A stretch of DNA of 64,000 nt, from contig CM055106.1 in NCBI GenBank assembly GCA_029204225.1, positions 13,522,812 to 13,586,811 on the forward strand. Reading direction: 5' to 3'. Within the stretch, counting starts at the first letter, position 1; every line of letters begins with the position of its first letter. The notes beneath the pieces are model-generated. The model was not told the DNA's origin and searched no databases. It worked only from the letters and a program-made list of their open reading frames with translations. The DNA is from Diphasiastrum complanatum. Lineage: Eukaryota > Streptophyta > Lycopodiopsida > Lycopodiales > Lycopodiaceae. Made by a program: the position numbers and the translations under genes. Positions 10,979 through 45,718 of the stretch are shown one piece after another.

Positions 10979-10984
10979 TGGCAT

Positions 10985-18321: not shown

Positions 18322-18339
18322 GTTATTCTTAGAGGATTG

Positions 18340-18781
18340 TTAGAGCAATTATACAAAAGATTTGCTAAGATCCATCTTATATAGCAAGACAACCAGGTTT
18401 CCAAATTGTATGTTAGCAGTTTGAATATGGTAGTTGTACCTAGTAGTAATTTTGACTACAGTTGCCAGAGCAGCCAATGTGTATTGATTGAAAATCACTT
18501 GCACAACAACTTGTGAGAGCCATTCGCATGAGCACGGTGGTATGTTATCACATTACACTCAATTTCGTGGATGGGTTTAAAAGGATTATACAGGAATATG
18601 TAGTCTACAAAAGGCCATCCCAAATCTCACCAAATGCCAGCCCTGTATTGAGCATTGCTCAATGTCAAAGCTAACGATTGTGTTGGGCAAAGTGGATAAC
18701 CGGAAGGGTAATTTCCTTAGAAGAGGATCTCAACTGCACTTACGACTAACATTCTGGAATCGGCATAGAGCTTATATGCTA
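18340..18781. other. No recognised gene
   Basis: The first 100 bp resemble the sequence just upstream of the other nepenthesin N-terminal half (about 30960-31040, opposite strand), including a TTGTCTTGCTATATAAGATG-like word. This could be the shared promoter, with TATATAAG as its TATA box. Nothing else was seen. Confidence 0.45.
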
Positions 18782-21691: not shown

Positions 21692-22187
21692 AGGGGCTTT
21701 GTAACAAGACAAGATGAGACAAAACGAAACAAAACGAAACTTAGGTGAGCTCTGAAATTGATTTACCTTGATGGCCAAGTGATCGCAAAGTGAAACGAGG
21801 CGAAACACGAAGCAAAAGGATTCACGAACAAGATTAGTTCGTCAGGAATTTAGATATGAAAGCTGGTCACTGCCAGCTATATCATTCCTACAATCCTTCA
21901 TTTCTTCCATTTCTTCAAGATCTTTAGGTGCCATATCAAAGCTCTCAAGATTTTTGACTCAGTCATTCGATAATGAATAAGCATCTCCTGGAGGTACTTA
22001 GATTGGCTCATGATCATAATACCTGCAACAATATTTCTTTCTATCTCGATTTCCAAGCAATAAGCCCTTCTCCTAGTTCCTTCACTTTAAATTCCAGCGC
22101 TAATGCCTGCTTAATCCTTCTGATATTGTACTGATCGTTTCCTATAATCAGAATGCCATCTACATATACTACGAGTAAGACAACACG

Positions 22188-22643
22188 CTAACCTTTTATG
22201 AGAGTATAAATGTTTCCATCAGACATAAATAATTTCATTCCAAGTTTCCTTGTAGCTTTGTCAAATCTCTGACTCCATTGCCTGCATCCCTGTTTTAAGC
22301 CATATATAGCTTTCTTTATCTTACAACACATATTGCTTCCTACTTCAAAATCAAGTGGTTGCATCATGTAAATACTTTCTTCAAGTATTCCATTCAAAAA
22401 AGTTGTTTTAACATCTGACTGCCAGATTTTCCAATTCTTTTGAGTAGCAATTGCAACCATAATTCTTGTAAAGGTAATTCCAACCACAGGTGCATAAGTT
22501 TTAGTATAGTCTATTCCTTCTATTTGACTATATCCCTTTGCCACAAGCCTGGCCTTAAACCTATCAACTGTTTTGTCAACTTTTAGTTTTACTTTGTACA
22601 CCCATTTGTTTCCAATTACCTTTGAGTTTGTAGGCATGTCCAC
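22188..22643 (-). pseudogene. Copia II reverse transcriptase (left)
   Basis: The frame reads [52 protein letters not shown] and KKAIYGLKQGCRQWSQRFD. After a stop at 22188 it continues to the catalytic site, which is YVDG (about 22154-22165) instead of YVDD. The loss of the second active-site Asp would inactivate the polymerase. The right-arm copy has an intact YVDD at about 40200. Confidence 0.9.
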
Positions 22644-22655
22644 GAGTTCCCATAC

Positions 22656-23678
22656 CTAGTTTTCTTCCATGGATTGAATCTCTTCTTCCATCGGTTTCCT
22701 CCAACTTGACCAATACTTGGACTTCTTTGCTTCTACCAAAGTTTTTAGTTCTAGTATGAGATCATTTCTCTCTTCCATTAGATATATCATGTCTCCATAC
22801 TTTTTTGATGGCCTTTTGACTCTTGTTGATTTTCTAATGTCACTTGGGAAACTGCCTTGATCTGGTTTCTTTTCTTCTTCATGATTCTTTTCTGTTGCAT
22901 TGTCCTGTACTTCAGCTTCCAATTCTACATTAAGATCTATGAATTGATCTTGCAAGGGATCATCTGGCCTTAATTGAGTATCTATCTCTAGATAGGCTTT
23001 TCTAGGAGCAATTGTTTCATAGAATGATTTGTCCTCATAGAATTTCACATCTCTTGAAACTATAACATTTTTGGTCTTTGGGATATAGACTTTATATCCT
23101 TTCTGCTTGTCAAGATACCCCACAGATATGCCTCTTCGTGTCTTCTACTAATGCATAGAATAAACAACCAAAAACTCTGATGTGATCTAGCTTCAGTTTG
23201 GACTTTGCCCATAGCTCATTAGGCGTTCTCCATCCTAACTTATGTATTGGCAACCTATTATAGACATATGCAGCTGTTGATCAGCCCAAAAATTTCTAGG
23301 CAAGCTTTTGCCATATATCATGCATCTCATGCTGTTCAGCATGGTTCGATTCATCCTTTCACTAATGCCATTCTGATGCGGGTTATGTGGACAAGTTAAC
23401 TGCCTTCTAATTCCTTCTTGTTTGCAAAATAGTTTAAATTCCTTACTGACATATTTTCCTCCATTATTTGTTCTCAATGCCAGAGGTGCTTGTCCGTATT
23501 GTGATTTACATGCACTCACATATTCTCTAAAAATAGACAAAGCCTCTGATTTGAGTTTTATAGCCTTAACAGCAGGATAACGAGAATAATTATTAGTAAT
23601 TGTTATAAAGTATTTTGCTGACCCTATGGATAATATTTTAATGGGTCCACAAAGATCACTATGAACAAGCTCAAGCAC
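22656..23678 (-). pseudogene. Copia II integrase and linker (left)
   Basis: The integrase has LELVHSDLCGPIKI with the first Asp and NPHQNGISERMNRTM with the Glu. The second catalytic Asp is Asn (RTNNGGKY), predicted to kill activity. A break near 23235-23123 follows, then the C-terminal part GYLDKQKGYKVYIPKTKNVI and an acidic linker to SWRKPMEEEIQSMEEN. Confidence 0.88.
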
Positions 23679-23923
23679 TTTCTTGCTAAAATCTCACTAG
23701 ATTTAGCAAATGGTTTCTTGTTCATTTTTCTATTAAGATAGACTTCGCATTGTTTGCATTTAGTCTCTTTCCTTTCATTCCATCCATCTAGTTTGATTCC
23801 TTTTGAAACTAGTTTTGCTAGTTTCCTGTGTGATGCATGTCCTAACCTTTCATGCTAGAATAATGATCCTATGTCATGTCTTTCTTCTGCGATATTGGCC
23901 TGCTCCTCTTGTATAAGATTGCA

Positions 23924-24505
23924 TTAAACTCTAAACAGGTTTCCAGCTTTAACACATTTTATAATCAACTTTTCATCAATGTAGATTAGGCAATTTCCCC
24001 CTTGAGATCTAGTTTCAATCTCCATGCCCATCATTCTGATGACAAAAAGAAGGTTTTTGCTTATTCTAGGTATGTACAAAACTTCTATCAACCTATCCCA
24101 TCTTGTTTTACTAAGTTCAATAAGAACTTGACCTGTCCCTTCTGCTACGATAGGTTTGTTATTTCCCATAAAAATGCTAATAGGAGGATCTAGATACTTG
24201 AAATCTCGAATGATGCTTCTATTAGGTGTCATATGAGACATGGAATCAACATACCAGGGTTCTTCTTCACTATCATTCCTGACAATGATCCTATTTCTGC
24301 AATGCTCAAGCTTGCGAGGAGTAGTCTTCTGTCTCGCCATCATACATCTTTCTTCAGATTTTGCATCTTCTTCATCTTCCTCAGCTAGGTTGGCCACTTC
24401 TTTGATCTGCATTTGCTTAATCTTTGCTTTAATTGGACAATCTCTTACCAGATGATCTGGTGAATCACAAGCATAACATTTTCTCTCAATCTTTTTCTGG
24501 AACAT
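23924..24505 (-). pseudogene. Copia II zinc knuckle and protease (left)
   Basis: Begins KIERKCYACDSPDHLVRDC, a CX2CX4HX4C knuckle, then an acidic spacer. The protease site reads WYVDSMSHMT where copia normally has WYVDSGASSHMT, so the catalytic loop has lost three residues including Gly. RISKNLLFVIRMM follows. The block is open but predicted inactive. Confidence 0.88.
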
Positions 24506-24511
24506 CCTTTT

Positions 24512-24935
24512 TCATTTGATATGTTGCTTCTCCTTTTGCTTCTGCCAATTTTGGGTTTGACTCCGTTGAGATGTCATGAGAAAAGCCATCTCCTGGTCAG
24601 ATTGTCCTCCCATCTTGCTTCTTCTTAGTTCTATCTGCATAATTCTTGCCATTGCTATCTCTAGACTCAACAAGTCTTCTTTTTCATTTGCATATTGGGC
24701 TTCTATAACTGCAATAGTTGTCTCAAAAGATGAAGGTAATTCTCCCAAAAATAATGCAGCCACATCTTTCTCTTTCATGGAAAATCCTAATGCTCCTAGG
24801 TGCCTGTGAACGTCCTTGAATCAGCTTACATAGGAGGTGATTAATTCACCTTTTGCTACTGCCATATGTATCAGCTCTTTCTACAGAATGATCCTGGAGG
24901 TCACTCGTACTCCAATAAGCTCACTCATAAAAATC
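24512..24935 (-). pseudogene. Copia II gag C-terminal part (left)
   Basis: Frame MKEKDVAALFLGELPSSFET then IAVIEAQYANEKEDLLSLEI matches the middle of copia gag. Upstream, in other frames, the sequence still resembles gag for about 150 bp and then meets the TIR of element X. The N-terminal gag half is not present here. Confidence 0.75.
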
Positions 24936-24938
24936 AAT

Positions 24939-24973
24939 CATTAGAGGAGTTCTCAATATCAAAAAGACCCTTT
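24939..24973 (+). repeat. Element X left TIR
   Basis: 35 bases starting CATTAGAGGAG and ending GACCCTTT are the perfect inverse of 28885-28919 and identical to 36460-36494. Confidence 0.9.
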
Positions 24974-25402
24974 GTAAAAATACTTTTATTTTTTTTCTTT
25001 AGTTTCGACTGTCACCAGGCCCAATCAAAATGCACAGATTTGAAATCTACGTAATGTAGTTCAAATTAACTGAGAAATAAAAATGCAATATAGAAAACTT
25101 TGAAATTTGTGTCCGGGCAGCATGGACGTATCCCGTTAGTTTCTTCTTCTTGCCCGACACATGCTAATCTGTCCGACATCAATACCTCAAGTTAAACTTA
25201 CTTGACTATGCTGGTTAGTATAATGAAATTTTCTAACTATACTAGTTATAGTTATAGAAATACAGTATGTAAAGTTACATAAAATATGGTATACGCAATA
25301 ACTGTGACTATGTTGGCATTCACATTAGATTAAATGTGATACGAAAAATTGAAATTAAGTATCATATCAAAGATTTTTGGCGCCCAAGCTTTGAAAATAG
25401 CA

Positions 25403-26055
25403 ATGGCAAGGAGACCTAGATCTACAATTGAGTCTGTGATTCTTTACAATGAGAAACATGAAGCTGATAACTGGAAGCCAACAAAATATACGAAGAATTC
25501 ATGGGTATTGCTGCATCCATCATCAAAGGGCAATTTTTGACAAAAGAAAAGAGCAAAAATGACTTACAAATCTTATTGGAAAACAAAAATTTTGGAGTTT
25601 AAGACTACTCGGGAGGTCAATCGATATCAGAAGTCTTAGTACAACATGTATATATGCATTCATAAATCAAAGTACATGATATCAATCCTCATGATCATCA
25701 AAAATGTAATTGTAAGTATATCAAAACATATGCACTCTACAACAATCATAGGTGATTTTCTTTATTGATGCTCTTCAGATTATGATTTAAATACTTCAAC
25801 ATTGTTTTTTTCTTTCAGATTTATATCCATCATGCATAATTGAATGGGAGCCCGCACTAATCACTTGTAGGAATATTAGACGTGATTCACTTTGATGTTG
25901 GAAAGCTGCAATACAGAGGAAGAAGTCCAAAGAAACTTGCAGATTGTGGTATCTATTTTTATGAATCTTTATATACGCTACAAACAGATGGAGGTTTTGG
26001 CAAGCTCGAAGCAATTCCATTGCCTAATTTTCAAAAATTGAAAGCATCTTGAAAA
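25403..26055 (+). pseudogene. Gene A, copy 2 (inside element X, left)
   Basis: The Met at 25403 starts MARRPRSTIESVILYNEK, then KYTKNSWVLLHPSSKGNF and a stop at about 25540. The same frame-family continues as KRAKMTYKSYWKTKILEFK. A donor-like GTAAGTATATC lies at 25712 and an acceptor TTTCTTTCAG at 25818. Exon 2 then carries VGKLQYRGRSPKKLADCG, FYESLYTLQTDG and AIPLPNFQKLKAS before a TGA at about 26055. Function unknown. Similarity to copies at 8.0-8.75 kb and 39.35-39.96 kb defines the family. It faces gene B tail to tail. Confidence 0.6.
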
Positions 26056-26059
26056 TTTT

Positions 26060-28236
26060 ATACTAACCATGTAATGAGTCATGTGATCTTCTCTCCATGC
26101 TTTTGATACTGCATTAACAAACTTGACACAAGTCCTTTGGACAGCTTTCTTATCAATATCAGAGTATTTTTCTTTTCTTAAAATAGCAATCATACTATCA
26201 AGCTTCTTCCATACATCAACTTTTAATACTCTGGTTTTGCCGTCTTTCTCGAAGTCCTGAGTGGCAGCAATAATATCTACCCAGACTGAGTGTTAAATAT
26301 TAGAAGCCTTACCAGTATGATTTGATAGGAAACGATGTGCTTTTGCTCCTCCTATGCTTGGCTTAGTTGGCATGTTCCCATTCTTTCCTAAAAGCTTTTC
26401 ATCTTTTTGAATTTTGACATGTCCCTTATGGAGTCCTGCTTTCGATAAAACATCTTCTAATCGAGAGATAGCTTCCTTTGCTAATGATGCTGGCTTAGTA
26501 TTCCAAGCAAAAACTATATGAAGATAAATGATCTTTTCTATTAAGCTAACTTCTGCATGAAGAGTGCAAACACGCACATTTTTCAAGGGGATAGACAGCA
26601 TAGGCTTCCAATTTGGATCTGCATATCCTCTAGTAATTCTTGTACTCCTAGTTACATCTTTTGTCATTTTCATGCAGTACAAACGAAGGTGTTTTGATGT
26701 AGCACCATGAGAGACTTTATACATACATTTCAATGTTTTCAAATCACCTGCCAAGTGCCATTCAACATTGAAGTCTCCAACTCCTGGAACATTGAGAAGT
26801 CCTCCATCCATATGGTTCTTGATGATCCTAGGATAAGATGTCCTTGATAATATATCATGATTCTCCTTCAACACCTGTCCAAAGAGTTAATCAGACTTAG
26901 TTTACAATGAATTAATACTATTCAATGAATGCAATGTAATAATGAGGCTAGTTACCTGAAACGCTGCCAACCACCATATATCATTTTCTGACTGGACACT
27001 GAATCTGAAATCTTCTTGGTTCTCTGTTTGTGATAGAGCACCATTCATGAGAGTTATACTAACTCTCTCCATCTTCTGCCCTTTCACAATTTCTGACTCA
27101 TCTAACTTAAGTACTATGATTATTTTGCCATTCACCTTTTCATAGGTTATATCATAGAATGTGACGATGTATCTCAGCAAGTAATTTAGATCAACAAATA
27201 AGTTGTTTGATGAATTCTAGAATATCAATCTTCCATCAGTTTCATACACCTCCTCAATATGAAATGGAGTTCCAGTGATCTTATGCATACCTATGTTTAA
27301 TGTATCTCTCTCTTTCTTCAAGTGATATGTCCTAGGGATTGGGACTTTTCTAATTTGAACTTGCTTAAAAGCTTCTCTAATTAGTTTAAATATTGTTTCA
27401 TATGCTTCTTTGCTAATACTTGCAAAATCACAAGCGCCCTGAACTATAGTCTTATCTAAATTTTTTTGAATGTCCACCATCAAAGACTCTGCTATTTTAT
27501 GCTTTACATTTGAATCATATTGTTCATCATGATACGCTTAGTGGATTTGCAAGTCAATATTGTGCCCAATGACATTCCTAGTGAAGCATTGTCTTTAATA
27601 TTCCGAGGAACTACTAATGCAGATCTGTAAAAAAAAGACAGATAGTTAACAGAATATCACCATAGCTGAAATTAAATCCAAATGTCATTGAAAAACTTAC
27701 AAAAATTAGAATATGCTTACTTGAATGCACAGATCCTTCTATTTAGATAACCTCCTTTTGAAAGCATTTGAATATCCTTGCAACTTTGTCGCTTTCGCTT
27801 CTTACTTTCAGCCTTCTTCTTTGCCAAATCCACATCCTTCAATAATTGTAAGTTTTCAATACGAATAGACTGTAAGACTGATTGCATTTGCTCTAGTTCT
27901 GATTTGAAATTGATTGTTATCTTCTGTAATGGTTCATTATTATTTTTAAGTTGTTCATTTTCTTCTAACATCTTTTGAAGATGATAATCTCTATTCTGAC
28001 AATAAGAGGATATCCGAATTAACTCCCCATCTAAAAAGTGAACTTTATTTATATAAAGTTGTTTTCCATGGTTCTACAATCTTTCACAATATCCTAGTAA
28101 TCCACTATGCCCATTGCATATCCATGTAACTAAATGAGTTATTGAAGAGAATGTGGGATGTGTCAAAGTGTTTGGATCTTGTGGATATAATGTTCCATCT
28201 ATCAACAAATCCAAGTTTTTTTTTCCTTTTGTCGTG
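26060..28236 (-). pseudogene. Gene B, left copy: multi-exon transposase-like candidate of element X
   Basis: Reading down from about 28236 (the start codon seen in the right copy is ACG here), exon 1 ends in a coiled coil (LEENEQLKNNNEPLQKITIN). Later exons hold KNLDKTIVQGACDFASISKE, RKVPIPRTYHLKKERDTLN, KLDESEIVKGQKMERVSITL, then GDFNVEWHLAGDLKTLKCMY and HLRLYCMKMTKDV with a CX2C-poor variant (single Cys). The C-terminal part has GGAKAHRFLSNHTGKASN, a stop, DIIAATQDFEKDGKTRVLKV and DHMTHYMVSIKF. Being the largest gene between TIRs, it is the likely transposase. The Asp in LDESEI and in AGDLKTL are candidate acidic residues. No named family was recognised. Confidence 0.5.
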
Positions 28237-28884
28237 TAACGAGAACGATCCTCAACAAATATTTGAATTTCTTTGCCTCCTCTTCTCTACAAAGGTGCCA
28301 AATCAATAGGGATATCCACATGTAGATGATACAATGTCATCATCAAAAAAACAATAGAGTAAATAGTTGCATCAAACTACTATGACCAGATTATATGAAG
28401 CAAAACAAAATACTCATCTTTGATTATATTATATACTATGTACGATCAATCCAATCTCCATGCTTGTATGTTTGATTAAAATTTGGAAATGCTGCTCATT
28501 TTTTCATTCCAATAGGTAGTTGGCGCTCATATTTCCATTCCAAGGTGATGATGGCGTTCATAATTGGAGATGACACCCATATTTCCATTCTCGTGGAAGG
28601 AATGCATATGTAAACATTTTGCAATTTTTTCTGATTCGAATTTGGGGATGACAGTCATATTCTACGTCTAGTGAAAATATTGCCCTTTTCGTAACCAATG
28701 GAGGGAATATTTTTGAATTTAGTCAAGTTATACTGCGAATTGTTTACAATTCTTAACTGTGACTATAGACACTGTGGTTAGATCATTGGGAGTTGGGGGG
28801 GCCTCGTGAGTAGTGGGGGCAAGCAAATAAACAATATTGTTTTTTTTTTTTTGATATTTTATTATATCCTACATGGCAATCCTT

Positions 28885-28919
28885 AAAGGGTCTTTTTGAT
28901 ATTGAGAACTCCTCTAATG
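28885..28919 (-). repeat. Element X right TIR
   Basis: Perfect reverse complement of 24939-24973. Confidence 0.9.
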
Positions 28920-29345
28920 AGAATGACTTTTTTTTTTTTTTGAACAGGGACAACACGAAAGTATATGTAGGGGATGGAGAGGATTTGCCATCTTGAGATG
29001 ATGACAAAATGGAGGTTAATCCAAATTACAAGTCTTGCAAGTACTGTAGTCTGTGTTAAGAAACATGACTAAACATGCAAAATGGCAAAATAGAAAACTA
29101 TGATTCTTGCAGGTATCAGATGAGCAGATAGAAAATATAAAGAGGTTGCATCTGACCCTAGATCAATGATTAATTCAAGGATCAAGAATGTGTAGGAAAA
29201 TTCTTGGCTGAAATTGAAACACCAAGGAGGAAATTGTGAGCTTAATCTGTGTACAGAGTAATACCTAGTATTATAGACGGATTTTTGTGCGATAGTTTGA
29301 CACCAGTGACATTTCTACACAAAATCGAATCAGCCGAACTAGTCG
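28920..29345 (-). repeat. Repeat F (flank of element X), left-arm copy with internal inversion
   Basis: Matches 35985-36459 and 52733-53204 in reverse complement, except that 29030-29252 runs in the same direction as those copies. Includes an ACTTTCGTGTTGTCC-type stretch next to the TIR and a poly-T run. Confidence 0.8.
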
Positions 29346-30149
29346 AAGGACGAATATTCTCTGTTACCTTACCAGTGGTTTGTAGATTTGTCGCCTCCTA
29401 TGCCTAAAAAGACGTAGAGTCAATAAAACCAAAGTTGTAATCACAATGAGATGGAGACTAAGATTTGAGAGAAGCCGAGAGTCAGAAAAAGAGATGGAGA
29501 GAGAGATTAATTTACATCCAAACAAGCTGAGGAAGGATCAGCTACACAAAGGAGGAGACAAAGACTACAGATACGTCCCTTGATACCATCACCCACTCCT
29601 ATTTCCTTTCGAAAATGCCGCAAAAATGGACAGAGATTTTGAAATTATCAAGAATTTGTTTGAGCATCGGTATAACCCACAAATTAGCTCAAGTATTCCA
29701 AGGTTTGTTCTGAGGTCTATTCAGAGGCCGTCACTATATGCTAAAAATCACATATCCATCAATTTTCCTATCCCACATCTTTTAATGGATGCCGGCTTTT
29801 GAAAAATCATGCCTTCTAAAACTTTTCAACTAAAAAATGTTGCATTCTAAAATTACACAACTATCAAAGATTGCCAATTTCTATATTCCCTAGCCTTGTT
29901 AAAGAATAGTGCATTAAACAAAAGTATTTTTTATATGCTAAATTATACTCATCATAATAAAAAAATCTATAAGTCTTCAAACATCGATGTAATTGGCATC
30001 CAACTACTTTTCTTGGGAATCAACCTAGAAGCTTGCTCCAACAATAATTTTCATGGTACCCATATAAGATCCCCATAAATTTATGAAAACGCTATCTTTA
30101 AAAAAGAGTAGGATCTCATAGTCACAAATTTTTGAGGGGTAATATTCTG
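29346..30149. other. Arm sequence without recognised gene
   Basis: Paired with about 35180-35985 in the right arm. It contains one copy of a roughly 230-bp unit (about 29880-30120, with a GATGTAATTGGCATCCAACT core) that recurs at about 30385-30590, and twice in the right arm. Confidence 0.7.
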
Positions 30150-30935
30150 AGGTGCCCTTCCTGAGATCCCTCAACCCCAAATCCTAGACTCTAGACCCTA
30201 ATCCCTAAACCTCAAACCCTAGACCATAAACCCTAAATCCTAAACCTTGAACACAATATAATTCTAAACTCGAGATCCTAAACCCTAAATGCTTACCCCA
30301 TAATCTAAACCCTAGATCTTGAACCCTAATCCCAAAATCCTAAACCCTAGATGTTAAACCCTAAACCTCAAACCCTAGACCCTAAATACTCATCATAATA
30401 ATAGAATTTATAAGTCTTCAAATATTGATGTAATTGGCATCCAACTAGTTTTCGTGGGCATTATTAGGCTCGTCCCAACAATAATTTTCATGGTACCCAT
30501 ATAAGATTCCCATGAATTTATGATATTGCTGCTTTTAAAAAAGAGTGGGATCTCATAGTCACAAATTTTCGAGCGATAATATTCTGAGATCCCCTTTCCT
30601 AGATCTCTAAACCCCAAATCCTAGACCCTAGACCCTAAACCCGAAACCTTAGACCCTAGACTCTAAACCCTAGATCCTAAACCCTAAACGCTTACCGCAA
30701 ACTCCTAGACTTTGAACCACGAACCCAAAATCTTAAATCTGAAACCCTAAACCCTGAAACCCTAAACCCTAAACCCTGAACCCTAAACTATAAAAAAAAA
30801 AAAATTAGACCTTGGACTCTAAATTCTAAACCCTAAATCCTAACCCTTAACCTTAATGCTAAACTGTAAACCCTGAAACGAAATCGTAAACCCTAGACCT
30901 TAGACCCTAGACCCTAGACCCTAAACCCTAAACCA
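30150..30935 (+). repeat. Degenerate interstitial telomeric repeat, C-strand (CCCTAAA)
   Basis: Dozens of CCCTAAAC, CCCTAGAC and CCTAAACC variants of the plant telomere heptamer, interrupted at about 30385-30590 by the arm's 230-bp unit. Inverse of the TTTAGGG array at 34571-35190 as far as 30757. Confidence 0.9.
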
Positions 30936-31051
30936 TATTCAAACTGCTACCATACGATTCGGAAACCTAGTTGTCTTGCTATATAAGATGAATCTTAGCA
31001 AATCTTTTGTATAATTGCTCTAACAATCCTCTGAGAATAACATGTGGCTGG

Positions 31052-31772
31052 ATGCAGGTTGTGACTTTATTGGTTCTTAGCTGTTTCGTCCCTGAACTAC
31101 ATGCGGAAAGTTCTTCACTCAAAACCCAAACAATCAAAATTTCCTCCAGAAGAAGCAAAGTACATTCCCCGCGCTACGACGTGCATCCCCAACGTAGCAC
31201 GCATCTTAACTATAAAAGTGATGGTTATAGGGTCGAGCTCATTCATCGAGACTCGTTATCTTTACACAATTTAACGAAGATCGAGAGAATTCGGCGTGCA
31301 GTGAAGCAAACCTAACACCGAGCTCAGCATATTTCTGCAAATATAATGAAGCATCACCCTAATTTTACTATCGCATTATCAAATTTCACTTCACCCCTGG
31401 AGTGGAATTATGGTTCGTACTTGATGGAGCTGCGCCTTGGCACTCCACCTGAAATCTTTCTCGCCATTGCAGATACAGGAAGTGACTTAACGTGGGTCCA
31501 ATGTTATCCTTGCTATAGGTGCTACAAGCAATACGAAATTATCTTCGATCCTGAAGATTCTTCGTCCTACAAAGAACTCTCCTGCAGCAGCCCTCAATGC
31601 CTGAACTTGCAATCAAGAGAATGTGATGGAGGCAACTGCCAATATCGTTATGGATACGGGGACGGCGCTATTTCGGAAGGGGACTTTTCTACCGAGACCC
31701 TCACCATGACAACAACAAGCGGAGCCCAGCAAGAGATTAACTTCGCCTTTGGATGTGGCCATCGAACTAAGG
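31052..31772 (+). pseudogene. Nepenthesin-type aspartic protease, N-terminal half (copy b)
   Basis: The Met at 31052 gives a good secretory signal, MQVVTLLVLSCFVPELHA, followed by a propeptide with IKISSRRSK and YRVELIHRDSL. After an in-frame stop (QT-stop, about 31313) lobe one continues: NYGSYLMELRLGTPPEIF, AIADTGSDLTWVQCYPC with the first catalytic Asp, CSSPQCLNLQSRECDGGNCQ, YGYGDGAISEGDFSTETL and FAFGCGHR. At about 31772 it switches to unrelated sequence, so lobe two is absent. A plus-strand lobe two is at 19.7 kb, beyond the left arm. Confidence 0.88.
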
Positions 31773-32460
31773 ATTTAACTGATGAAATGATATCAAAACT
31801 CCTTGATGATCATTGGGATGTGAAAATTGATGGCAGCATTCAATGTAGGGCTAACAAATCATCCATGATATTTTGATACCATATAGAAAAACAAAAGCTT
31901 TCTTTTATGTTTTATTATAGAAGATGGATTAGAGATAATAATGAATGGAAAGCATTAGATCAAGGCTTTACAATGAACCATCAAGAGCAAATGCAAATAG
32001 AGGTGAAGCAAAATGAGGTTGTTATTGCGACAATTGAAGTGGAAGAGGACTGGAGTCTAATATATATACGATCGGAACTTACAATGCTCCAATTTGACAT
32101 ACCTCAAAGTATAGTTTTCAAGTAAATGGAAGAATGGTACGTTTTTGTATTAAATAGTCTGTTATATAATTGTTATACTGTTATTTATTAACAATGATTT
32201 ATTGGTAGATCATTTGCAATGTTAATGCAGATTAGAGCAAGGCAAGAAAATCATATCCCATGCAAAGATTTATTGTCAAGCATAGAAATTGTCGAAACAA
32301 ATTAAAGCCTTGATGAATCAGTAAATGTACAATATTGGTGAGCTTAACTTTCTTTGTGAAATTTTAGATTGCTAACTTTTGGCTCCTTTTATAGTAACCC
32401 ACATTGTTTATTGATTAATGTAATTCCATGGTTTTCATGTGCAGGTTCAAGAAAAGTGAA
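31773..32460 (+). CDS. Unrecognised coding-like segment ('segment C') converging on the Ulp1-like gene
   Basis: Frames read DEMISKLLDDHWDVKIDG, a stop at about 31876, then YYRRWIRDNNEWKALDQGF and EVVIATIEVEEDWSLIYIRS to a stop at 32125. Sequence to 32460 has only short frames. I recognise no domain. It sits tail to tail with the Ulp1-like gene, as gene A does at 7.8-8.0 kb. It could be a gene relic or chance coding. Confidence 0.25.
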
Positions 32461-32611: not shown

Positions 32612-34113
32612 CTATTTTTCTATATAAATTTCTTTTCCATGAGCTTTTTCAAGTGTAAGCTCCCCAGCTTCTTGATCCGCTGTCACCGATGTTGCATTAG
32701 AGAGAAAAATCTTCAGCATCTCTTGTCGAAATTCAAATATGTCATTCTGTGTGAATTTCAGACAGGTGAACTGCAAATCATCAACAATAGACAAGTTACA
32801 CGAATACACAAAAGTAAAAAATCATATAAATAAAATCAGTGTACATCCAAACCCAAATAACCTGATGTATATCGACATTTTCACCTTGGCTGATGAACCA
32901 TTCCATAAAGCATTTTACATTTTTAATGGCATACCAGCCACAACTGAATGAGTGAACTTGTTGAGAGGACTGAGAATCAAAATACAGAATGTTAGTTTCA
33001 CATTTTTTTATATGGCAATTTGCATCACGCAAAGACTAACTGAAAAATTGGTTACCTGTGCGTCTATTATCTCTATGTGGCCTTCATTGGAAAATAAATG
33101 ATCATGCTTTTGTACATCTCAATGTTGACATTGAGGTGTGTTGATCTCAAAGAGTTCATTCTCAGAACCTTTGGATTACACAAATCGGCTTCATCCACTC
33201 TTAGTGATATAATATGTACAGACCAGTGATGACTGCAATCAACCAAATAGTCAATGATATGCAAATGAAAAAAATACAAATAAAACATATAAGAAAACAA
33301 TACATACAACTCAAATTAAACAATACATACTTTTGACAGTATGGTACAACAAAAATTTCGGAGTCGCATGGCATATATCATAAACATGATGCAACTGACT
33401 GCATGTCCTTAAGCAGGTGACAAAAAAATTGAGTAAGCACAAAAACACTAGGAACACTGTCGCTTTTGTACAACTGGACCCAATAATTGAGTCCAGCTTC
33501 GACAAATGGGTTTGTGAGGTCCGAAGACTTATTCAATAACTCCTTACAGATAACAAGATTAAAATAATTCATATAGGAGGCCGAATATATATTGAATACA
33601 AAGTGACCACCTAATTTATCTTTTTTTTTAGCTATGTACTCGTCAAAAATTATATATCGCTCAAAATAAAAAAAATGTCAGCATGGGATCAACCGGATAT
33701 TGAATAGCTAGATTTCTATATATAGTTCCTATTGACTGAGATGGGCTTTCAAGAAAAAGAGCAATTGATTTTGTTATATATCTATCCAGATCCTCTGTGG
33801 TGCGTCTCGACACATCCAAAGATTGGTCACTATCAGAAGAGTAATCTAGTAAAAAATTCAAACCAAGAGTGACAGGAAGAACCTCTTGACCTTTCAGTGT
33901 ATCAAGAATCAATTGGGTTTGGCCTATCATCTGCTCGGTCTCATCTGATAGTACTAATCTTCTTTTAGGCGAAGGTGGAGGAGAGGGGGATTCTTTAGGT
34001 TCCACCCTAGACGGCCCAACTTGATCATTAGTTGGCTGGTCTTCAACTGGCTTGATTTGGCTTTTTTAAGCCTTTGCTCCTGACCTCACTGGTCTTGACT
34101 ACTTTTCTTTCCT
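32612..34113 (-). pseudogene. Ulp1/C48 SUMO-protease-like region (copy 2), downstream of an H3-like domain
   Basis: Continues in the same frame as the H3-like domain after three stops: VEPKESPSPPPSPKRRLVLS (about 34011-33952), LILDTLKGQEVLPVTLGLN, and DLDRYITKSIALFLES. Later blocks in other frames are ICHATPKFLLYHTVKS, the catalytic-type His in CSHHWSVHIISLRVDE (about 33240-33195), Asn in VLRMNSLRS where Ulp1 enzymes usually have Asp, and the Cys block SFSCGWYAIKNVKCFMEWF (about 32960-32905). Order and spacing fit Ulp1. Introns and stops intervene. The family removes SUMO from proteins. Confidence 0.6.
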
Positions 34114-34566
34114 CTAATAAGGGGGTCTAACCCTGGGAGCTGGTCGAGGTGGTGGAGGTGCCTTGAATACCTGTTCGTACTGATTCTTCAGCCTAAACAC
34201 AAGCTCCATATCCTTGGGCATGATAGTCACCCACTTTGCGTGTACAGCAACAAGCATAGTATCCTCAAAAAACTTAATCTGATAATCTTCGTAGGCTGTA
34301 TGCAATGTTTCAATTGCAGTCACGCACCATCTGACATCCACGTACAAAGACCTTGTCACATCCCTCACTATTCGGTTGAAGTGAGCTTTCGGTATCAGCA
34401 GGTTGGTGGACTTCTATAACCTCCTAATACCTTTGAGCCATGGGTGGGGTATTCTGCCATTCCCCCTAGCACGATGTCGAGAAGCTGCAGGATGCAAGGA
34501 TGATGTGGCTTGACCAGCTGGCGGGATAGTAGACTTTGGACGAGCGGTCTGTTTGGTCCTTGCCAT
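34114..34566 (-). pseudogene. Divergent histone H3/CENH3-like gene (H3L-1)
   Basis: The Met at 34566 starts MARTKQTARPKST, matching the H3 tail except for a Pro inserted before the Lys-9 position. The fold region reads KSTNLLIPKAHFNRIVRDVT, then SLYVDVRW, AIETLHTAYEDY, and FFEDTMLVAVHAKWVTIMPK followed by DMELVFRLK. These align along the whole H3 fold (alpha-N, alpha-1, loop 1, alpha-2, alpha-3). STNLLIP and the longer loop with RW look CENH3-like. One in-frame TAG (34414-34416) falls where H3 has Tyr/Phe-Gln. A proline-rich tail follows, a TAG at 34114-34116, then the Ulp1-like part in the same frame. The start lies 5 bp from the arm edge, so any native promoter has been replaced by telomere-like repeats. 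Confidence 0.8.
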
Positions 34567-34570
34567 TGCT

Positions 34571-35190
34571 TCAGGGTTTAGGGTTTCAGATTTAAGATTT
34601 TGGGTTCGTGGTTCAAAGTCTAGGAGTTTGCGGTAAGCGTTTAGGGTATAGGATCTAGGGTTTAGAGTCTAGGGTTTAAGTTTCGGGTTTAGGGTCTAGG
34701 GTCTAGGATTTGGGGTTTAGAGATCTAGGAAAGGGGATCTCAGAATATTATCCCATAAAAATTTGTGACTATGAGATCCCACTCTTTTTAAAAGTAGCAA
34801 TTTCATAAATTCATGGGAATCTTATATGGGTATCATGAAAATTATTGTTGGGGCGAGCTTAATAATGCCCACGAAAACTACTTGGATGCCAATTACATCA
34901 ATATTTGAAGACTTATAAATTCTATTATTATGATGAGTATCTAGGGTCAAGGGTTTAAGGTTTAGGGTTTAATATCTAGGGTTTAGATTATGGGATTTTG
35001 GGATTAGGGTTCAAGATCTAGGGTTTAGATTATGGGGTGGGGTAAGCATTTAGGGTTTAGGATCTAGAGTTTAGAATTATATTGTGTTCAAGGTTTAGGA
35101 TTTAGGGTTTATGGTCTAGGGTTTAACGTTTAGGGTTTAGGGTTTAGGGTCTAGAGTCTAGGATTTGGGGTTGAGGGATCTAGGCAAGGG
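34571..35190 (-). repeat. Degenerate interstitial telomeric repeat, G-strand (TTTAGGG)
   Basis: TTTAGGGTTTAGGGTC-type repeats on the plus strand, the mirror image of the left-arm array, interrupted by the 230-bp unit at about 34740-34940. The first bases are the reverse complement of sequence ending near 30757, marking the inner edge of the inverted duplication. Confidence 0.9.
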
Positions 35191-35984
35191 CACCTCAGAA
35201 TATTACCCCTCAAAAATTTGTGACTATGAGATCCCACTCTTTTTTAAAGATAGCGTTTTCATAAATTTATGGGGATCTTATATGGGTACCATGAAAATTA
35301 TTGTTGGAGCAAGCTTTTAGGTTGATTCCCAAGAAAAGCAGTTGGATGCCAATTACATCGATGTTTGAAGACTTGTAAATTTTTTTATTATGATGAGTAT
35401 TATTTAGCATATAAAAAATAGTTTCGTTTAATGCACTATTCTTTAACAAGGCTAGGGAATATAGAAACTGGCAATCTTTGATAGTTGTGTAATTTTAGAA
35501 TGCAACATTTTTTAGTTGAAAAGTTATAGAAGGCATGATTTTTCAAAAGCCGACATCCATTAAAAGATGTGGGATATCAAAGGAAAATTGATGGATATGT
35601 GATTTTTAGCATTTAGTGAGGGCCTCTGAATAGACCTCGGAACAAACCTTGGAATACTTAAGCTAATTTGTGGGTTATATTGATGCTCAAACAAATTCTT
35701 GATAATCTCAAAATCTTTGTCCATTTTTGCGGCATTTTCGAAAGAAAACAGGAGTGGGTGATGGTATCAAGGGACGTATATGTAGTCTTTGTCTCCTCCT
35801 TTGTGTAGCTGATCCTTCCTCATCTTGTTTGGATGTAAATTAATCTCTCTCTCCATCGCTTTTTCTAACTCTCGGCTTCTCTCAAATCTTAGTCTCCATG
35901 TCATTGTGATTACAACTGTGGTTTTATTGACTCCACGTCTTTTCAGACATAGGAGGCGACAAATCTACAAACCACTAGTAAGGT
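35191..35984. other. Right-arm sequence without recognised gene
   Basis: Mirror of 29346-30149. It carries the second right-arm copy of the 230-bp unit (about 35200-35450). A short frame here is present in both arms but has no recognised motif. Confidence 0.7.
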
Positions 35985-36459
35985 AACAGAGAATATTCGT
36001 CCTTCAACTAGTTCGGCTGATTCGATTCAGTGTAGAATGTCACTGGTGTCAAACTATCGCACAAAAATCCGTCTATAATACTAGGTATTACTCTGCACAC
36101 AAAATGAGAGTAGTCTTGCAAGTACTGTAGTCTGTGTTAAGAAACATGACTAAACATGCAAAATGGCAAAATAGAAAACTATGATTCTTGCAAGTATCAG
36201 ATGAGTAGACAGAAAATATAAAGAGGTTGCATGATTAATTCTAGATCAATGATTAATTCAAGGACCAAGAATGTGTAGGAAAAGTCTTGGCTGAAATTGA
36301 AACACCAAGGAGAAAATTATGAGCTTAATCTCCAACAAGAAAAGTCCTTGTGGTTTGGATTACCCTCCATTTTGTCATCATTTCAAGGTGGCAAATCCTC
36401 TCCATCCCCTACATATACTTTCGTGTTGTCCATGTTCAAAAAAAAAAAATAGTCATTTT
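35985..36459 (+). repeat. Repeat F, right-arm copy
   Basis: Collinear with 52733-53204 along its full length, including TCTGCACACAAAATGAGAGT and GGCAAATCCTCTCCATCCCC. It ends AGTCATTTT immediately before the TIR of element X. Confidence 0.85.
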
Positions 36460-37146
36460 CATTAGAGGAGTTCTCAATATCAAAAAGACCCTTTAAGGAA
36501 TGCCATGTAGGATATAGAGAAATATCAAAATAAAAAAAAAAACAATGTTGTTTATTTGCTTGCCCCCACTACTCCCGAGGCCTCCCCAATTCTCAATTAT
36601 CTAACCATAGTGTCTATAGTCATAGTTAAGAACTGTAAACAGTTCACAGTATAACTTGACTCAATTCAAAAATATTCCCTCCATTGGTTACGAAAAGGGC
36701 AATATTTTCACTCGATCTAAAATATGACTGCCATCCCCAAATTCGAATCAGAAAAAATTGCAAAATGTTTACATATGCATTCCTTTCACGAGAATGGAAA
36801 TATGGGTGTCATCTCCAATTATGAACGCCATCATCACCTTGGAATGGAAATATGAGCGCCAACCACCTATTGGAATGAAAAAATGAGCGGCATTTCCAAA
36901 TTTGAATCAAGCATACAAGCATGGAGATTGGATTGGTCGTACATAGTATATAATATAATCAAAGATGAGTATTTTGTTTTGTTTCATATATATTGGTCAT
37001 AGTATTGTGATGCAACTGATTACTCTACTGTTTTTTTGATGATGACATTGTATCATCTACATGTGGATATCCCTATTGATTTGGCACCTTTGTAGAGAAG
37101 AGGAGACAAAGGAATTCAAATATCTACTGAGGATTGTTCTCGTTAC

Positions 37147-39350
37147 ATGGCAGAAGGAAAAAAAAAAAACCTGGATTTGTGGATAGATGGAACATTATAT
37201 CCACAAGATCCAAACACTTTGACACATGTCACATTCTCTTCAATAACTCATTTAGTTACATGGATATGCAATGGGCATAGTGGATTACTAGGATATTGTG
37301 AAAGATTGCAGAACCATGGAAAACAACTTTATATAAATAAAGTTCACTTTTTAGAAGGTGAGTTAATTCGGATATCTTCTTATTGTCAGAATAGAGATTG
37401 TCATCTCCAAAAGATGTTAGAAGAAAATGAACAACTTAAAAATAATAATGAATCATTACAGAAGATAACAATCAATTTCAAATCAGAACTAGAGCAAATT
37501 CAATCAGTCTTACAGTCTATTCGTATTGTAAACTTACAATTATCGAAGGATGTAAATTTGGAAAAGAAGAAGGCTGAAAGTAAGAAGCGAAAGTGACAAA
37601 GTTGCAAAGATATTCAAACGCTTTCAAAAGGAGGTTCTCTAAATAGAAGGATTCGTACATTCAAGTAAGCATATTCTGATTTTTGTAAGTTTTTCAATGA
37701 CATTTGGATTTAATTTCAGCTATGGTGATATTCTGTTAACTATCTATTTTTTTTGCAGATCTGTATTAGTAGCTCCTCGGAATATTAAAGACAATGCTTC
37801 ACTAGGAATGTCATTGGGCACAATATTGACTTGCAAATCCATTGAGCGTATCATGATGAACAATAGGATTTCAAATGTAAAGTGTAAAATAGCAGAGTCT
37901 GGATGGTGGACATTCAAAAAATTTTAGATAAGACTATAGTTCAGTGTGCTTGTGATTTTGCAGGTATTAGCAGAGAAGCATATGCGACAATATTTAAACT
38001 AATTAGAGAAGATTTTAAGCAAGTTCAAATAAGAAAAGTCCCAATCCCTAGGACATATCACTTGAAGAAAGAGAGAGATACATTAAACATAGGTATGCAT
38101 AAGATCACTGATGAGGTGTATGAAACTGATGGAAGATCGATATTCTATAATTCATCAGACAACTATTTGTTGATCTAAATTAATTGCTGAGATACATCGT
38201 CATATTCTATTATATAACCTATGAAAAGGTGAATGGCAAAATAACCAAAGTACTTAAGTTAGATGAGTTAGAAATTGTGAAAGGGCAGAAGATGGAGAGA
38301 GTTAGTATAACTCTCATGAATGGTGCTCTATCACAAATAGAGAACCAAGAAGATTTCATATTCAGTGTCCAGTCAAAAAATGATATATGGTGGTTGGCAG
38401 CGTTTCAAGTAACTAGCCTCATTATTACATTACATTCATTGAATAGTATTAATTCATTGTAAAGTAAGTCTGATTAACTCTTTGGACAGGTGCTGAAGGA
38501 GGATCATGATATATTATCAAGGACATCTTATGCTAGGATTATCAAGAACCATATGGATGGAGGACTTCTCAATGTTCTAGGAGTTGGAGACTTCAATGTT
38601 GAATGGCACTTGGCAGGTGATTTGAAAACATTGAAATGTATGTATAATGTCTCTCACGGTGCTACATCAAAACACCTTTGTTTGTACTGCATGAAAATGA
38701 CAAAAGATGTAACTAGGAGTACAAGAATTACTAGAGAATATGTAGATCCAAATTGGAAGCCTGTGCTGTCTATCCCCTTGAAAAATGTGGATGTTTGCAC
38801 TCTTCATGCAGAAGGTAGATTAATAGAAAAGATCATTTATCTACATATAGTTTTTGCTTGGAATACTAAGCCAACATCATTAGCAAAGGAAGCTATCTCT
38901 CGATTAGAAGATGTTTTATCAAAAGCAAGACTCCATAAGGGACATGTCAAAATTCAAAAAGATGAAAAGCTTTCAAGAAAGAATGGGAATATGCCAACTA
39001 AGCCAAGCATAGGAGGAGCAAAAGCACGTCGTTTCCTATCAAATCATATTGGTAAGGCTTCTAATATTTAACACTCAGTCTGGATAGATATTATTGCTGC
39101 CACTCAGGACTTCGAGAAAGACGGCAAAACCAGAGTACTAAAAGTTGATGTATGGAAGAAGCTTGATAGTATGATTGCTATTTTAAGAAAAGAAAAATAC
39201 TCTGATATTGATAAGAAAGCTGTTCAAAGGACTTGTGTCGAGTTTGTTAATGCAGTATCAAAAGCATGGGGAGAAGATCACATCACTCATTACATGATTA
39301 GTATAAAATTTTCAAGATGCTTTCAATTTTTGAAAACTAGGCAATGGAAT
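37147..39350 (+). pseudogene. Gene B, right copy: transposase-like candidate with visible introns
   Basis: The Met at 37147 starts MAEGKKK then LDLWIDGTLYPQDPNTLTH. A coiled coil (LEENEQLKNNNESLQKI) leads to SKKRK, a stop (37594), and a donor at 37665. An intron to TTTTTTTTGCAG (37758) joins TFK to SVLVAPRNIKDNASLGMSLG. A 1-base loss near 37900 shifts the frame into DKTIVQCACDFAGISREAYA. A phase-0 intron, 38409-38489, links WWLAAFQ to VLKEDHDILS. The last exon has GDFNVEWHLAGDLKTLKCMY and HLCLYCMK (CX2C), then GKASNI, a stop (about 39070), IIAATQDFEKDGKTRVLKV and DHITHYMISIKF. Splice sites match the left copy. Candidate function is transposition; family unrecognised. Confidence 0.55.
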
Positions 39351-39961
39351 TGCTTTGAGCTTGCCAAAACCTCCATCTGTTTGTGGCGTATATAAAGATT
39401 CATAAAAATAGATACCACAATTTGCAAGTTCCTTTGGACTTCTTCCTCTGTATTGCAGCTTTCCAACATCAGAGTGAATCACATCTAATATTCCTGCAAG
39501 TGATTGTGCGGGCTCCCATTCACTTATGCATGATGGATATAAATCTGAAAGAAAAAAACAATGTTGAAGTATTTAAATCATAATCTGAAGAGCTTCAATA
39601 AAGAAAATCACCTATGATTGTTGTAAAGTGCATATGTTTTGATATACTTACAATTACATTTTTGATGATCATGAGGATTGATATCATGTACTTTGATTTC
39701 TAAATGCATATATACATGTTGTACTAAGACTTCTGATATCGATTGACCTCTCAGAGTAGTCTTAAACTCCAAAAATTTTTATTTCCAATAAGATTTGTAA
39801 GTCATTTTTGCTCTTTTCTTTTGTCAAAAATTGCTCTTTGATGATGGATGCATCAATACCCATGAATTCTTCGTATATTTTGTTGGCTTCCAGTTATCAG
39901 CTTCATCTTTCTCATTGTAAAGAATCACAGACTCGATTGTAGATCTGGGTCTCCTTGCCAT
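39345..39961 (-). pseudogene. Gene A, copy 3 (inside element X, right)
   Basis: The Met at 39961 gives MARRPRSTIESVILYNEKDE and YTKNSWVLMHPSSKSNF, then a stop and the continuing block KRAKMTYKSYW. VQHVYMHLEIKV and HDHQKCNCK precede a splice donor near 39650. Exon 2 (about 39545-39345) includes the segment paired with KLADCGIYFYES and IPLPSFQKL-type text of the other copies, with frame changes. Same tail-to-tail arrangement with gene B as the left copy. Confidence 0.6.
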
Positions 39962-40006
39962 TGCTATTTTCAAAGCTTGGGTGCCAAAAATCTCTGATAT
40001 GATACA

Positions 40007-41024
40007 ACCACCTGATTTTAAAGTAGGAAGCAATATTTGTTGTAAGATGAAGAAAGCTATATATGGCTTAAAACAGGGATGCAGGCAATGGAGTCAAAGA
40101 TTTGACAAAGCTACAAGAAAACTTGGAATGAAATTATATATGTCTGATGGAAGCATTTATACTCTCATAAAATGTCAGCGTGTTGTCTTACTCACAGTAT
40201 ATGTAGATGACATTCCGATTATAGGAAACGATTAGTACAATATCAGAAGGATCAAGCAGGCATTAGCGCTGGAATTTAAAGTGAAGGAACTAGGAGAAGA
40301 GCTTATTGCTTGGGAATCAAGATAGAAGAGAAATATTGCTGCAGGTATTACCATCATGAGCCAATCTAAGTACCTCCAGGAGATGCTTATTCATTATCGA
40401 ATGACTAAGTCAAAAATCTTGAGTACTCCAATAGAGAAAGGACACGAGTTGAGATTTGATATGGCACCTAAAGATCTTGAAGAAATGGAAGAAATGAAGG
40501 ATAAACCATTTCAAAATCTTGTAGGTTCCTTAATGTATGCAACTATGTGCACAAGACCATATATACCCTTCAGTGTGAATAAAGTGGGAGACAGAGACAT
40601 GAGGAGATCACCTTCAGAAAATGTTTTTGTTTGTTCAAATGCCGCCATAAGTTGGGATGTTCCAAGTAGAGGAGTGTTGCATTATCAACAATGCAAGCAG
40701 AATATATGGCACTTAATTATGCTGCCAGAGAAGCACTATGGATACAAAATCTCAACAGAATGGGAAATGGAACAACAAAGATTGGTCATAAAGAATGATA
40801 ATGAGAGCTGCATTTTTGTTTGCAAAAAAAGAGGTGAACACAAAAGTAGTAAGCATATTGAATTGCAATACAGGTTTGTCAAGGAGCTGATCGATGATGA
40901 CAGGCTTGTTGTGGAGTATTGCGGAACAAAGTCTATGATAGCGGATATGCTTACCAAAGCTCTTCCAAAGGAGCAGCACCTGAAGCTTACCGAGTTAGCA
41001 GGATTGAAAAATGTAGGGGGGATC
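40007..41024 (+). pseudogene. Copia II RT end and RNase H (right copy)
   Basis: Starts in RT at PPDFKVGSNICCKMKKAIYG, then LLTVYVDDIPIIGND with an intact catalytic YVDD near 40200. After a stop and frame changes comes MSQSKYLQEMLIHYRMTKSK, the connection NLVGSLMYATMCTRPYI, and the RNase H end KNDNESCIFVCK, SSKHIELQYRFVKELI and MIADMLTKALPKEQHLKL. It ends just before the polypurine tract GTAGGGGGGATC. The RNase H core is partly scrambled (40590-40750). Confidence 0.88.
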
Positions 41025-42355
41025 TGTTAAGACCATTGATCAATGAACAATTTTCTGTTAGATCAATTAGGCCAAAGTAGTTTTAGGGTTAGTTGACATA
41101 TCAAACGATTTGTAGTTAGGTAGTTAACTCGACTGTGTTTAGGCTGAAAATATGCAAGTAATAGGTGCTAGAATCATATTAGCTAGTAGATAAATGTGCG
41201 ATGTTGTGGTAGTCTAGATATGCTTCTTCCTGAGTACTGGATAGATGTTGTAAGGAGATTGTTGTTGGATTTATCTCCTTTACTTGTGTTGTCGCACAGT
41301 CTGCATATTTACATGTAAAATAAGACAGGCGAAAAATGCGACTGTCTACATTTTTTTTACTCGAGGATTTCCATAGGCGAAAAAGACGAAAAAAGCGACA
41401 CTATGTTTTTACACGTGATTTATGATAGGCGAAAAAAGACAACACTACCCTACAAATGCCAAAGGTGTCCTACAAATGCCAAAGGTGCCCTTATAGAAAA
41501 GCGAAGGTACCTTGTAAATCAATTTTTAAGGCATTTGTTAAAGTGTCACATTTTTTGCATTTTTATCAACGTTAATTCTAGCGAAGATCAACGTCGCGGC
41601 CTCCTCATGCTCATCCCATGCACTGTGCAATCAGATTTGACAATGACATTAGCCACTCATAATCTCCCACAAACAACACAACCACTTTTGTACCTTCTTC
41701 ATCAGCACACCTATACAAATTATGTATATATATTGAATATCATCTGCATATTCATATAATCGCATCATAACAACATCAAAATATAACATAAGAGAGAATG
41801 AAACATCACTGATAATCAAAGATAGACTTCATAGATGCTTTCGGGCATTAATTCTCTTCTTCCAGATGTATTGTCAGTAATGGGTTCATCACCTTTACAG
41901 ATTGTGTGATTAGCTTTGTGAAGCACGCGATTATATCCGCTATTGTTTTGTGCACACCTGCATTATTGACCTGTATATTTTGTTATATTTAATCTGATTA
42001 TAGCTCTGTTTGTTCTGCTTCAGATTTGTGTCAATATTGCAATGCTTTTCTACGTTTTGTCTGGCTTTCTGATTACTTAATCTTGTTGTCTGATCTTCGT
42101 GACTAATAATTTGTCTAGTTATTCATGACAAATTATTTGTCTGATGTTTTGATGCTTAATATTTGGCTATGTAATTAGATCGAACGTGATTTCCATCACT
42201 AATATTCTGTTCGAGACTGGTAGGCATAGTCATGCTTGAAGAAAGAGTGAGATAGATTATTCCTCTGCGCACGAACATTTTCCATTTGAGTTCGCTTCTT
42301 TTTGTGTTCATTTATTTTTCAAGTTATCTTCGTCTTCACACCCCTCTTTCCAACA
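41025..42355 (+). repeat. LTR region(s) between copia II 3' end and a copia primer site
   Basis: A polypurine tract precedes TGTTAAGACCATTGATC at 41025, a convincing 3' LTR start. A copia-type primer site starts at 42356 right after CCAACA, a convincing LTR end. Whether 41025-42355 is one 1,331-bp LTR shared by two half-elements or two partial LTRs cannot be told by eye. Inside, AGGCGAAAAA recurs at about 41328-41450 and an 18-19 bp unit CTACAAATGCCAAAGGTG is tandemly repeated near 41450-41490. A 118-codon frame at 41403-41759 has no recognised motif. Confidence 0.55.
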
Positions 42356-45281: not shown

Positions 45282-45718
45282 ATGGCTAGGATGAAGACCA
45301 CTGCTCATGCTATAACCTCTGTACAGTTTTCTCGTGCACATGTCCCCCCTGGTACTGGTCGTAGACGTGGCAGGAAGTAAGTCTAGTTGAGGGAGATCAG
45401 AAAACTCTAGAGATCAACTAAATTGTTGATCCCTAGAGCTCCTTTAGGCTGATCTGTTAAAAATGTCACCATGTCACTTGGGCTATATGTTCATTTTGTC
45501 GTGACAGCCATGTGGGCCGTACAGAGTGCTGCAGAAGATTTCATGTCCCAATTTTTTAAGGATTCCTATCTTCTGGTTGTGCATGGTAAGCTTGGTACCA
45601 TCATGCCTAAAGATTTTGTTATTCTCAAACGACTTCGGGACCGGTATTCAAGCCTTCATGTGGATAACGCCAACACCTCTAGAGACCTGCTGCCTCTAGA
45701 TAGATCTAACTTGCCAAC
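45282..45718 (+). pseudogene. Second divergent histone H3/CENH3-like gene (H3L-2), cut by a copia LTR
   Basis: One frame runs from MARMKTTAHAIT through GTGRRRGRK, a stop, LREIRKL, a stop, RSTKLLIPRAPLG, a stop, SVKNVTMSLGLYVHFVV, AMWAVQSAAEDFMSQFF, and VVHGKLGTIMPKDFVILKRL to RDRY. These align with the H3 fold (LREIRRYQKSTELLI, VTIMPKDIQLARRI). LLIP-AP and AAEDF resemble plant CENH3. TAA, TAG, TAG and TGA stops interrupt it without loss of frame, so decay was mainly by substitutions. A Met codon directly precedes (45279). The frame meets the copia III LTR at 45719, so nothing can be said about a Ulp1-like extension. Confidence 0.75.

Follow-up and report, generated by a model that had tools for sequence, protein, structure and literature searches.

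Layout of the H3-like/C48-like gene

The DNA studied here (the window) is a stretch of 64,000 nucleotides from the genome of Diphasiastrum complanatum (contig CM055106.1). Its minus strand carries, from 34566 down to 32612, a gene in which a histone H3-like domain is followed by a linker and by a domain similar to the C48, or Ulp1-type, SUMO proteases. This fusion of an H3-like and a Ulp1-like part is real, and the gene is an accessory one, carried by a DNA transposon that is present in many copies and is bounded by CATTA...TAATG. The copy of the window is a relic that contains stops and one frame slip.

The H3-like domain (H3A, 34168-34566) begins at the minus-strand ATG at 34566 with the H3-type start MARTKQTAR, continues through the histone fold and contains one in-frame TAG (34414-34416). 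The linker (33664-34167), rich in Pro, Ser and Lys, shares the frame of H3A and is open in some relatives. In the window it is interrupted by three stops (34114-34116, 34099-34101 and 34066-34068), after which a stretch of 134 codons is open (33661-34065). From the ATG to 33661, the frame displays 5 stops in 302 codons, the last one included, against 17.0 expected from 20,000 first-order Markov shuffles (P=0.0006). The C48-like part is composed of exon 1 (33331-33677, with one in-frame TGA), exon 2 (33056-33232, with the catalytic His in HHW and, in MNS, an Asn at the usual place of the Asp), exon 3 (32862-32969, with the Gln and the catalytic Cys in QQ...SCGW) and exon 4 with the stop codon (32612-32770). 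They are separated by introns at 33233-33330, 32970-33055 and 32771-32861, whose GT and AG borders are read in the sequence. The initial annotation had described a single frame running from the H3 tail into the linker and the protease. This is correct for the linker, whereas the C48-like part is here one frame off, after a slip at a run of T near 33670, and is divided by the three GT-AG introns. A chance frame is ruled out by the stop shuffles and because the same H3-then-C48 arrangement recurs across the genome.

Identity of the H3-like domain

The H3 fold noticed by the initial annotation was confirmed by Pfam and by the PDB. H3A matches PF00125 at E=3.2e-21 (76.3 bits for a cut-off of 26.4), and the six relatives scanned all match this family with 70.5 to 88.2 bits. 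A sequence search of the PDB recovered 177 sequences at E<=0.001 (best E 5.2e-23); the 60 matches listed are all H3 types by name. Among the 18 copies with a displayed N-terminus, the start MARTKQ is conserved in 15 and the complete MARTKQTAR in three, and the residues following MARTKQ differ from subfamily to subfamily. The K9 context ARKS was found in none of these 18 copies, the window copy having ARPKS. Helix alpha-N is shortened and the sequence RYRPGTVAL of the H3 alpha-N is not present. The H3-like part has retained the H3-type start and not the K9 context.

The label CENH3, also proposed by the initial annotation, is not supported by these sequences over that of a separate H3-like branch. 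The longer loop 1 of CENH3 is lacking in H3A, which aligns with no gap to H3 and with two gaps to CENP-A. In a tree of 13 rows, one of them from Arabidopsis, the H3-like copies form their own group with a modest support (81/79). The Trp following loop 1 of H3A is CENH3-like. An annotated algal protein (P0003, Haematococcus lacustris, 799 residues) also ends with an H3-like C-terminus, after some 650 other residues that look transposase-like by eye; it may be a fusion created by the gene model.

Identity of the protease domain

The C48-like part of the window scores 17.9 bits with the Pfam family C48 (PF02902), under the cut-off of 20.7, and exon 3 gives a partial match at E=0.0033. Concerning spliced relatives from other loci of the genome (designated L), PF02902 was detected at E<=1 in four of the six scanned (best E 5.4e-6), and one of them, L021, passes the cut-off with 20.9 bits. 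With the window sequence, five PDB sequences were recovered at E<=10 (best E 0.054), and every one of them is a SENP2 or Ulp1-like protease. SENP2 was also recovered, at E 0.0055, by a profile built from six spliced relatives; five of the six matches of this profile at E<=10 are SENP2/Ulp1, and the sixth is the ribosomal protein L29. The active-site motifs HW, QQ and SCG align with those of SENP2/Ulp1, and the catalytic Cys is conserved in the 11 displayed copies covering its place. The protease part has thus kept the His, the Gln and the Cys, with an Asn in place of the Asp. The Asp of the motif IIDAQ was considered as the catalytic one and discarded: it immediately precedes the QQ...C block, whereas the Asp of Ulp1 follows HW, and the aligned triad place holds Asn.

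Copies in the genome and continuity of the frame

The genome of D. complanatum (1.745 Gb) was searched with the H3-like part and with C48 exon 1. At least 150 significant matches were obtained for the H3-like part (150 of the 150 scored, of 6540 loose candidates) and at least 150 for C48 exon 1 (150 of 150 scored, of 2987 loose candidates), some rows of both lists being near-identical duplicates. The copies are spread over more than 20 large contigs. In at least 65 of the 97 close H3-like matches, a C48 exon follows on the same strand at a distance of 151-582 bp; among the matches listed, C48 was found upstream in none of the 97 and on the opposite strand in one. An H3 fold with a C-terminal C48 domain, the association proposed by the initial annotation, is consequently a recurrent one in this genome.

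Twenty loci of 10 kb, selected in part for open frames or a C48 match, were fetched, and in every one of them the H3-like part is followed on its own strand by one or more C48 exons. Five of these loci (L021, L022, L036, L037 and L040), belonging to two subfamilies, have a frame without interruption between the H3 ATG and the end of C48 exon 1; copies uninterrupted over this part therefore exist. This continuous frame ends just past exon 1 in four of the five loci and runs on through the intron in L021. At the four places where the window copy has stops before 33661, three further loci (L002, L007 and L008) show only sense codons. The borders of intron 1, read at 14 of the 20 loci, comprise the donor GTA in 14 of 14 and the acceptor AG in 12 of 14 (lost in L029 and L037).

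No relatives were detected in the viral contig collection or in the genome contig collection. In the protein database, the linker and C48 used as query gave no match at E<=0.1 among 1213 candidates. The whole fusion gave only three matches among 7991 scored, all through the H3 part, and no H3-C48 fusion. No H3-Ulp1 fusion or transposon with such a gene was reported in the literature searched, which comprised few subscription journals.

Selection on the coding sequence

The ratio of nonsynonymous to synonymous substitution rates (dN/dS) has medians, within the two subfamilies, of 0.46 and 0.38 for the H3-like part and of 0.43 and 0.43 for C48 exon 1. Between subfamilies it is 0.175 for the H3-like part. 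The sets compared include broken copies, which raise the ratio. These codon changes indicate purifying selection at the protein level. The window contains a second H3-like copy (H3B, 45282-45656, plus strand), which has stops and is 44% identical to H3A over 90 residues. Over the 90 codons compared, the two copies show 36 differences at the first position, 31 at the second and 61 at the third, as expected of sequences diverging while coding. A TAG is found at the same alignment place in H3A (34414-34416) and H3B (45408-45410); this is probably a coincidence at a mutable codon.

The transposon

The initial annotation had suggested a mobile-element setting, and the gene indeed lies within a transposon carrying a transposase with a predicted RAG1/Transib fold. 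The composite element, pieced together from several loci, consists of the transposase gene T upstream, the H3-linker-C48 gene with its introns, and a convergent gene X downstream. Among the 20 fetched loci, 10 have T upstream in the same orientation and 12 have X downstream in the opposite one. Ten of the 20, from two subfamilies, share a sharp right end with the sequence TAATG (CAATG in L025) and have differing flanks. Two elements were read with both ends. The first (L041+L039) has 8379 bp and contains T, the H3-like part, C48 exon 1 and X. The second (L036) has 6224 bp and contains the open frame from H3 through C48 exon 1, exons 2 and 3, X and fragments of T. No fully intact element was seen among the loci read.

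T belongs to a family of proteins of about 900 residues with 25 relatives in the database (E<=6.6e-50), none of them named. Eight members were scanned with Pfam and gave no match above the cut-off, nor any match to a MULE transposase at E<=1. In a structure model of the T protein P0011 (predicted local distance difference test, pLDDT, 67; predicted template modelling score, pTM, 0.52), RAG1 and Transib were matched far above other folds, and T is accordingly modelled as a RAG1/Transib-fold transposase. The T sequence profile gave three PDB matches at E<=10, none of them RAG1 or Transib. The motifs KLDE, GDLK, CLYC, H(4)H and QGME are present in P0011 and are found piecewise in L026 or L039; in the T copies of the window, the match stops ahead of the Glu region. 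The CA...TG ends of the RAG1/Transib/CMCT type are represented by CATTA...TAATG. An identity as Pack-MULE or KI-MULE, the first idea, was dropped since the transposase is RAG1/Transib-like. A 2022 paper reports 39 plant proteins as potentially Transib-like (PMC9435367), and a plant relative of Transib is therefore not new by itself. Gene X encodes a conserved protein starting with MARRPRSTIESVILYNEKDEADNW, without Pfam match at E<=1; two copies are located in the window (39329-39965 and 8129-8744, both on the minus strand).

Proposed function of the fusion protein

The gene of the window is, in our opinion, quite probably the decayed remnant of a gene that a plant DNA transposon of high copy number carried as an accessory and that would have encoded a single H3-linker-Ulp1 protein docking on chromatin and counteracting silencing. 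That the H3-like and C48 parts were made as one chain appears highly probable. By analogy with the VANC-Ulp1 of VANDAL elements, we infer that the protein is likely a chromatin-docking, SUMO-directed anti-silencing factor; for the anti-silencing role taken by itself, our confidence falls somewhat short of even. The H3-like part could dock the protein on chromatin, either because it pairs with H4 within nucleosomes or because it presents the ARTKQTAR tail to K4 readers. Docking would bring the protease to SUMO-modified silencing proteins at the copies of the element, which would thereby escape silencing. It is conceivable, though rather unlikely, that the transposon encodes its own nucleosome subunit, an H3 variant with the K4 tail kept and no K9 site. 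Incorporated into the chromatin of the element copies, this variant would carry a tethered SUMO protease that removes the silencing machinery, and the chromatin of the element would thus resist heterochromatin from within.

Several observations weigh against the preceding interpretation. No C48 was found among the matches listed for 32 of the 97 close H3-like matches, and the 20 fetched loci were picked partly for long open frames or for a C48 match; 15 of them are not open through C48 exon 1. The continuous H3-C48 frame spans only exon 1, and the His and Cys lie on the exons that follow it. Because these residues sit on later exons, Pfam sees only the histone in the H3-containing frames, with PF02902 detected at E<=1 in none of the six scanned (L038 included). 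The catalytic His is lost in L037. In the Ulp1 triad, an Asp is expected after HW; an Asn occupies this place in the window copy and in the 14 displayed copies covering it. Cys-His-Asn triads are functional in papain-type enzymes, but because of this replacement, the activity of the C48 part cannot be assumed. The between-subfamily dN/dS of C48 (0.28) rests apparently on one pair (minimum = maximum) because dS is saturated, and the ratios range up to 1.32 for H3 and 1.73 for C48. The AlphaFold model of H3 with the linker is unusable (pLDDT 48). Concerning the element, T is matched on the opposite strand in L022, the sole such locus of the 20; in L041+L039 the H3-C48 frame is broken before exon 1 and only this C48 exon was seen; and no target-site duplication was found for either of the elements whose two ends were read. 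In the window, the H3A-C48A relic lies between two inverted element remnants with T and X, inside neither, and these remnants are without H3-C48. No C48 was detected adjoining H3B. A second C48-like copy (C48B, 7030-7795, plus strand), 26% identical to C48A over 119 residues, adjoins the X copy at 8129-8744; it has no Pfam match at E<=1, and no H3 was detected alongside.

Transposons capture H3, Ulp1, TET and SET genes. The closest parallel to the proposed role is given by the VANDAL MULE transposons, in which VANC targets the elements of its own family and lifts their silencing (PMC5735166) and in which the KIU genes are VANC genes with a transduplicated Ulp1 domain (PMC13317346). Like the present element, these are plant DNA transposons whose accessory gene joins a DNA- or chromatin-docking part to Ulp1. 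The difference is that the docking part is here an H3-like histone fold, and that the transposase has a modelled RAG1/Transib fold without MULE match. The CMCT clade is described by D-D-E residues, C(2)C and H(3-4)H motifs, CA...TG ends and a target-site duplication of 2-5 bp (PMC12730594). The element resembles RAG1/Transib/CMCT by its modelled fold, the D-D-E places, the C(2)C and H(4)H motifs and the CA...TG ends; contrary to them, T has no detectable sequence similarity to RAG1/Transib of the PDB, and the element carries the H3-Ulp1 gene and X. The same paper reports fungal DNA transposons carrying TET/JBP, some of them of the CMCT clade. Here too, diverse transposons encode an enzyme that targets an epigenetic mark, but the enzyme and the host kingdom are different.

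An alternative that we consider unlikely, without being negligible, is that the H3-like part, derived from a captured H3 or CENH3, acts as a decoy or as a structural passenger, which would serve the nuclear retention or the DNA binding of the transposition complex, the protease processing or stabilising the transposase without any anti-silencing. Ulp1-type proteases are present in several transposon groups (for KIU, PMC13317346), and the Asn of the triad makes the activity uncertain. The available text on fungal hAT transposons reports the capture of histone H3 (PMC6710886), so that a DNA transposon amplifies an H3 sequence there too; however, this text mentions no protease fusion, whereas the present H3 part is strongly diverged, selected and fused. 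The purifying selection on the fold and the tail start kept across subfamilies argue for a specific histone-like role.

It is improbable that these are two adjacent genes of one transposon, an H3-like gene with a Pro-rich tail and a separate Ulp1-like gene, that never produced one protein. Three stops of the window are clustered between the two parts (34066-34116), the guanine-cytosine content at third codon positions falls from 0.50 to 0.29 at this cluster, and H3B and C48B each stand alone. However, the stop places are all sense codons in L002, L007 and L008, five of the 20 chosen loci are open through in two subfamilies, and the first Met of the open linker stretch of the window is only at residue 46. 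A host family of H3 variants and proteases, grown by tandem or segmental duplication, would fit the protein-level selection and the position of the window copy inside a segmental inverted repeat, but is largely contradicted, and hardly credible, given copies on more than 20 large contigs, sharp common right ends with differing flanks, and a gene order, with the transposase and X, that recurs at several loci.

We found in this analysis no precedent for a protease joined to a histone fold of the H3 type and apparently kept by selection in a high-copy element. Under the favoured reading of an anti-silencing accessory gene, the question arises whether a transposon can carry its own histone variant against silencing. 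The analysis also places in a plant genome a transposase family without Pfam match, with a modelled RAG1/Transib fold and an apparent epigenetic accessory gene.

Surroundings of the gene in the window

The relic is flanked by a long inverted repeat. The left arm (25359-30758) is 94.2% identical to the right arm (34570-40005) over 5328 aligned bases, with a Kimura two-parameter distance of 0.061, and 4 bp separate the ATG of H3A from the inner edge of the right arm. These arms were rejected as terminal inverted repeats of a transposon: they pass the element ends, and the outer match stops within a Copia frame. Their appearance is that of a segmental inverted duplication. The element ends CATTAGAGGAGTT are located at 24939, 28919 and 36460. 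The left remnant (24939-28919, minus strand) has both CATTA/TAATG ends, a decayed T at 26047-28334 (minus strand) and X, detected by DNA homology. The right remnant (36460-40005, plus strand) begins with the end at 36460 and has lost its right end at a Copia junction; it contains a decayed T (37039-39317, plus strand), matched like the left one to the RAG1/Transib-fold family, and convergent with it the X copy at 39329-39965, similar at the protein level to that at 8129-8744 (best E=6.7e-24 on the minus strand).

Degenerate telomere-like CCCTAAA arrays, in modules of about 440 bp, are present at the inner edge of both arms (30165-30934 and 34640-35180), those of the right arm immediately preceding the start codon of H3A. 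A TAXi-type aspartic protease gene is represented by fragments at 10232-11093, 17472-18431, 19673-20296 and 30932-31876, in inverted copies of about 95% identity; one N-terminal piece is located between the inverted arms and adjoins the H3-C48 relic. A plant-like Copia element occupies corresponding places in both arms (21893-25359 and 39999-41030, the 5' part missing on the right), and is apparently older than the inverted duplication.
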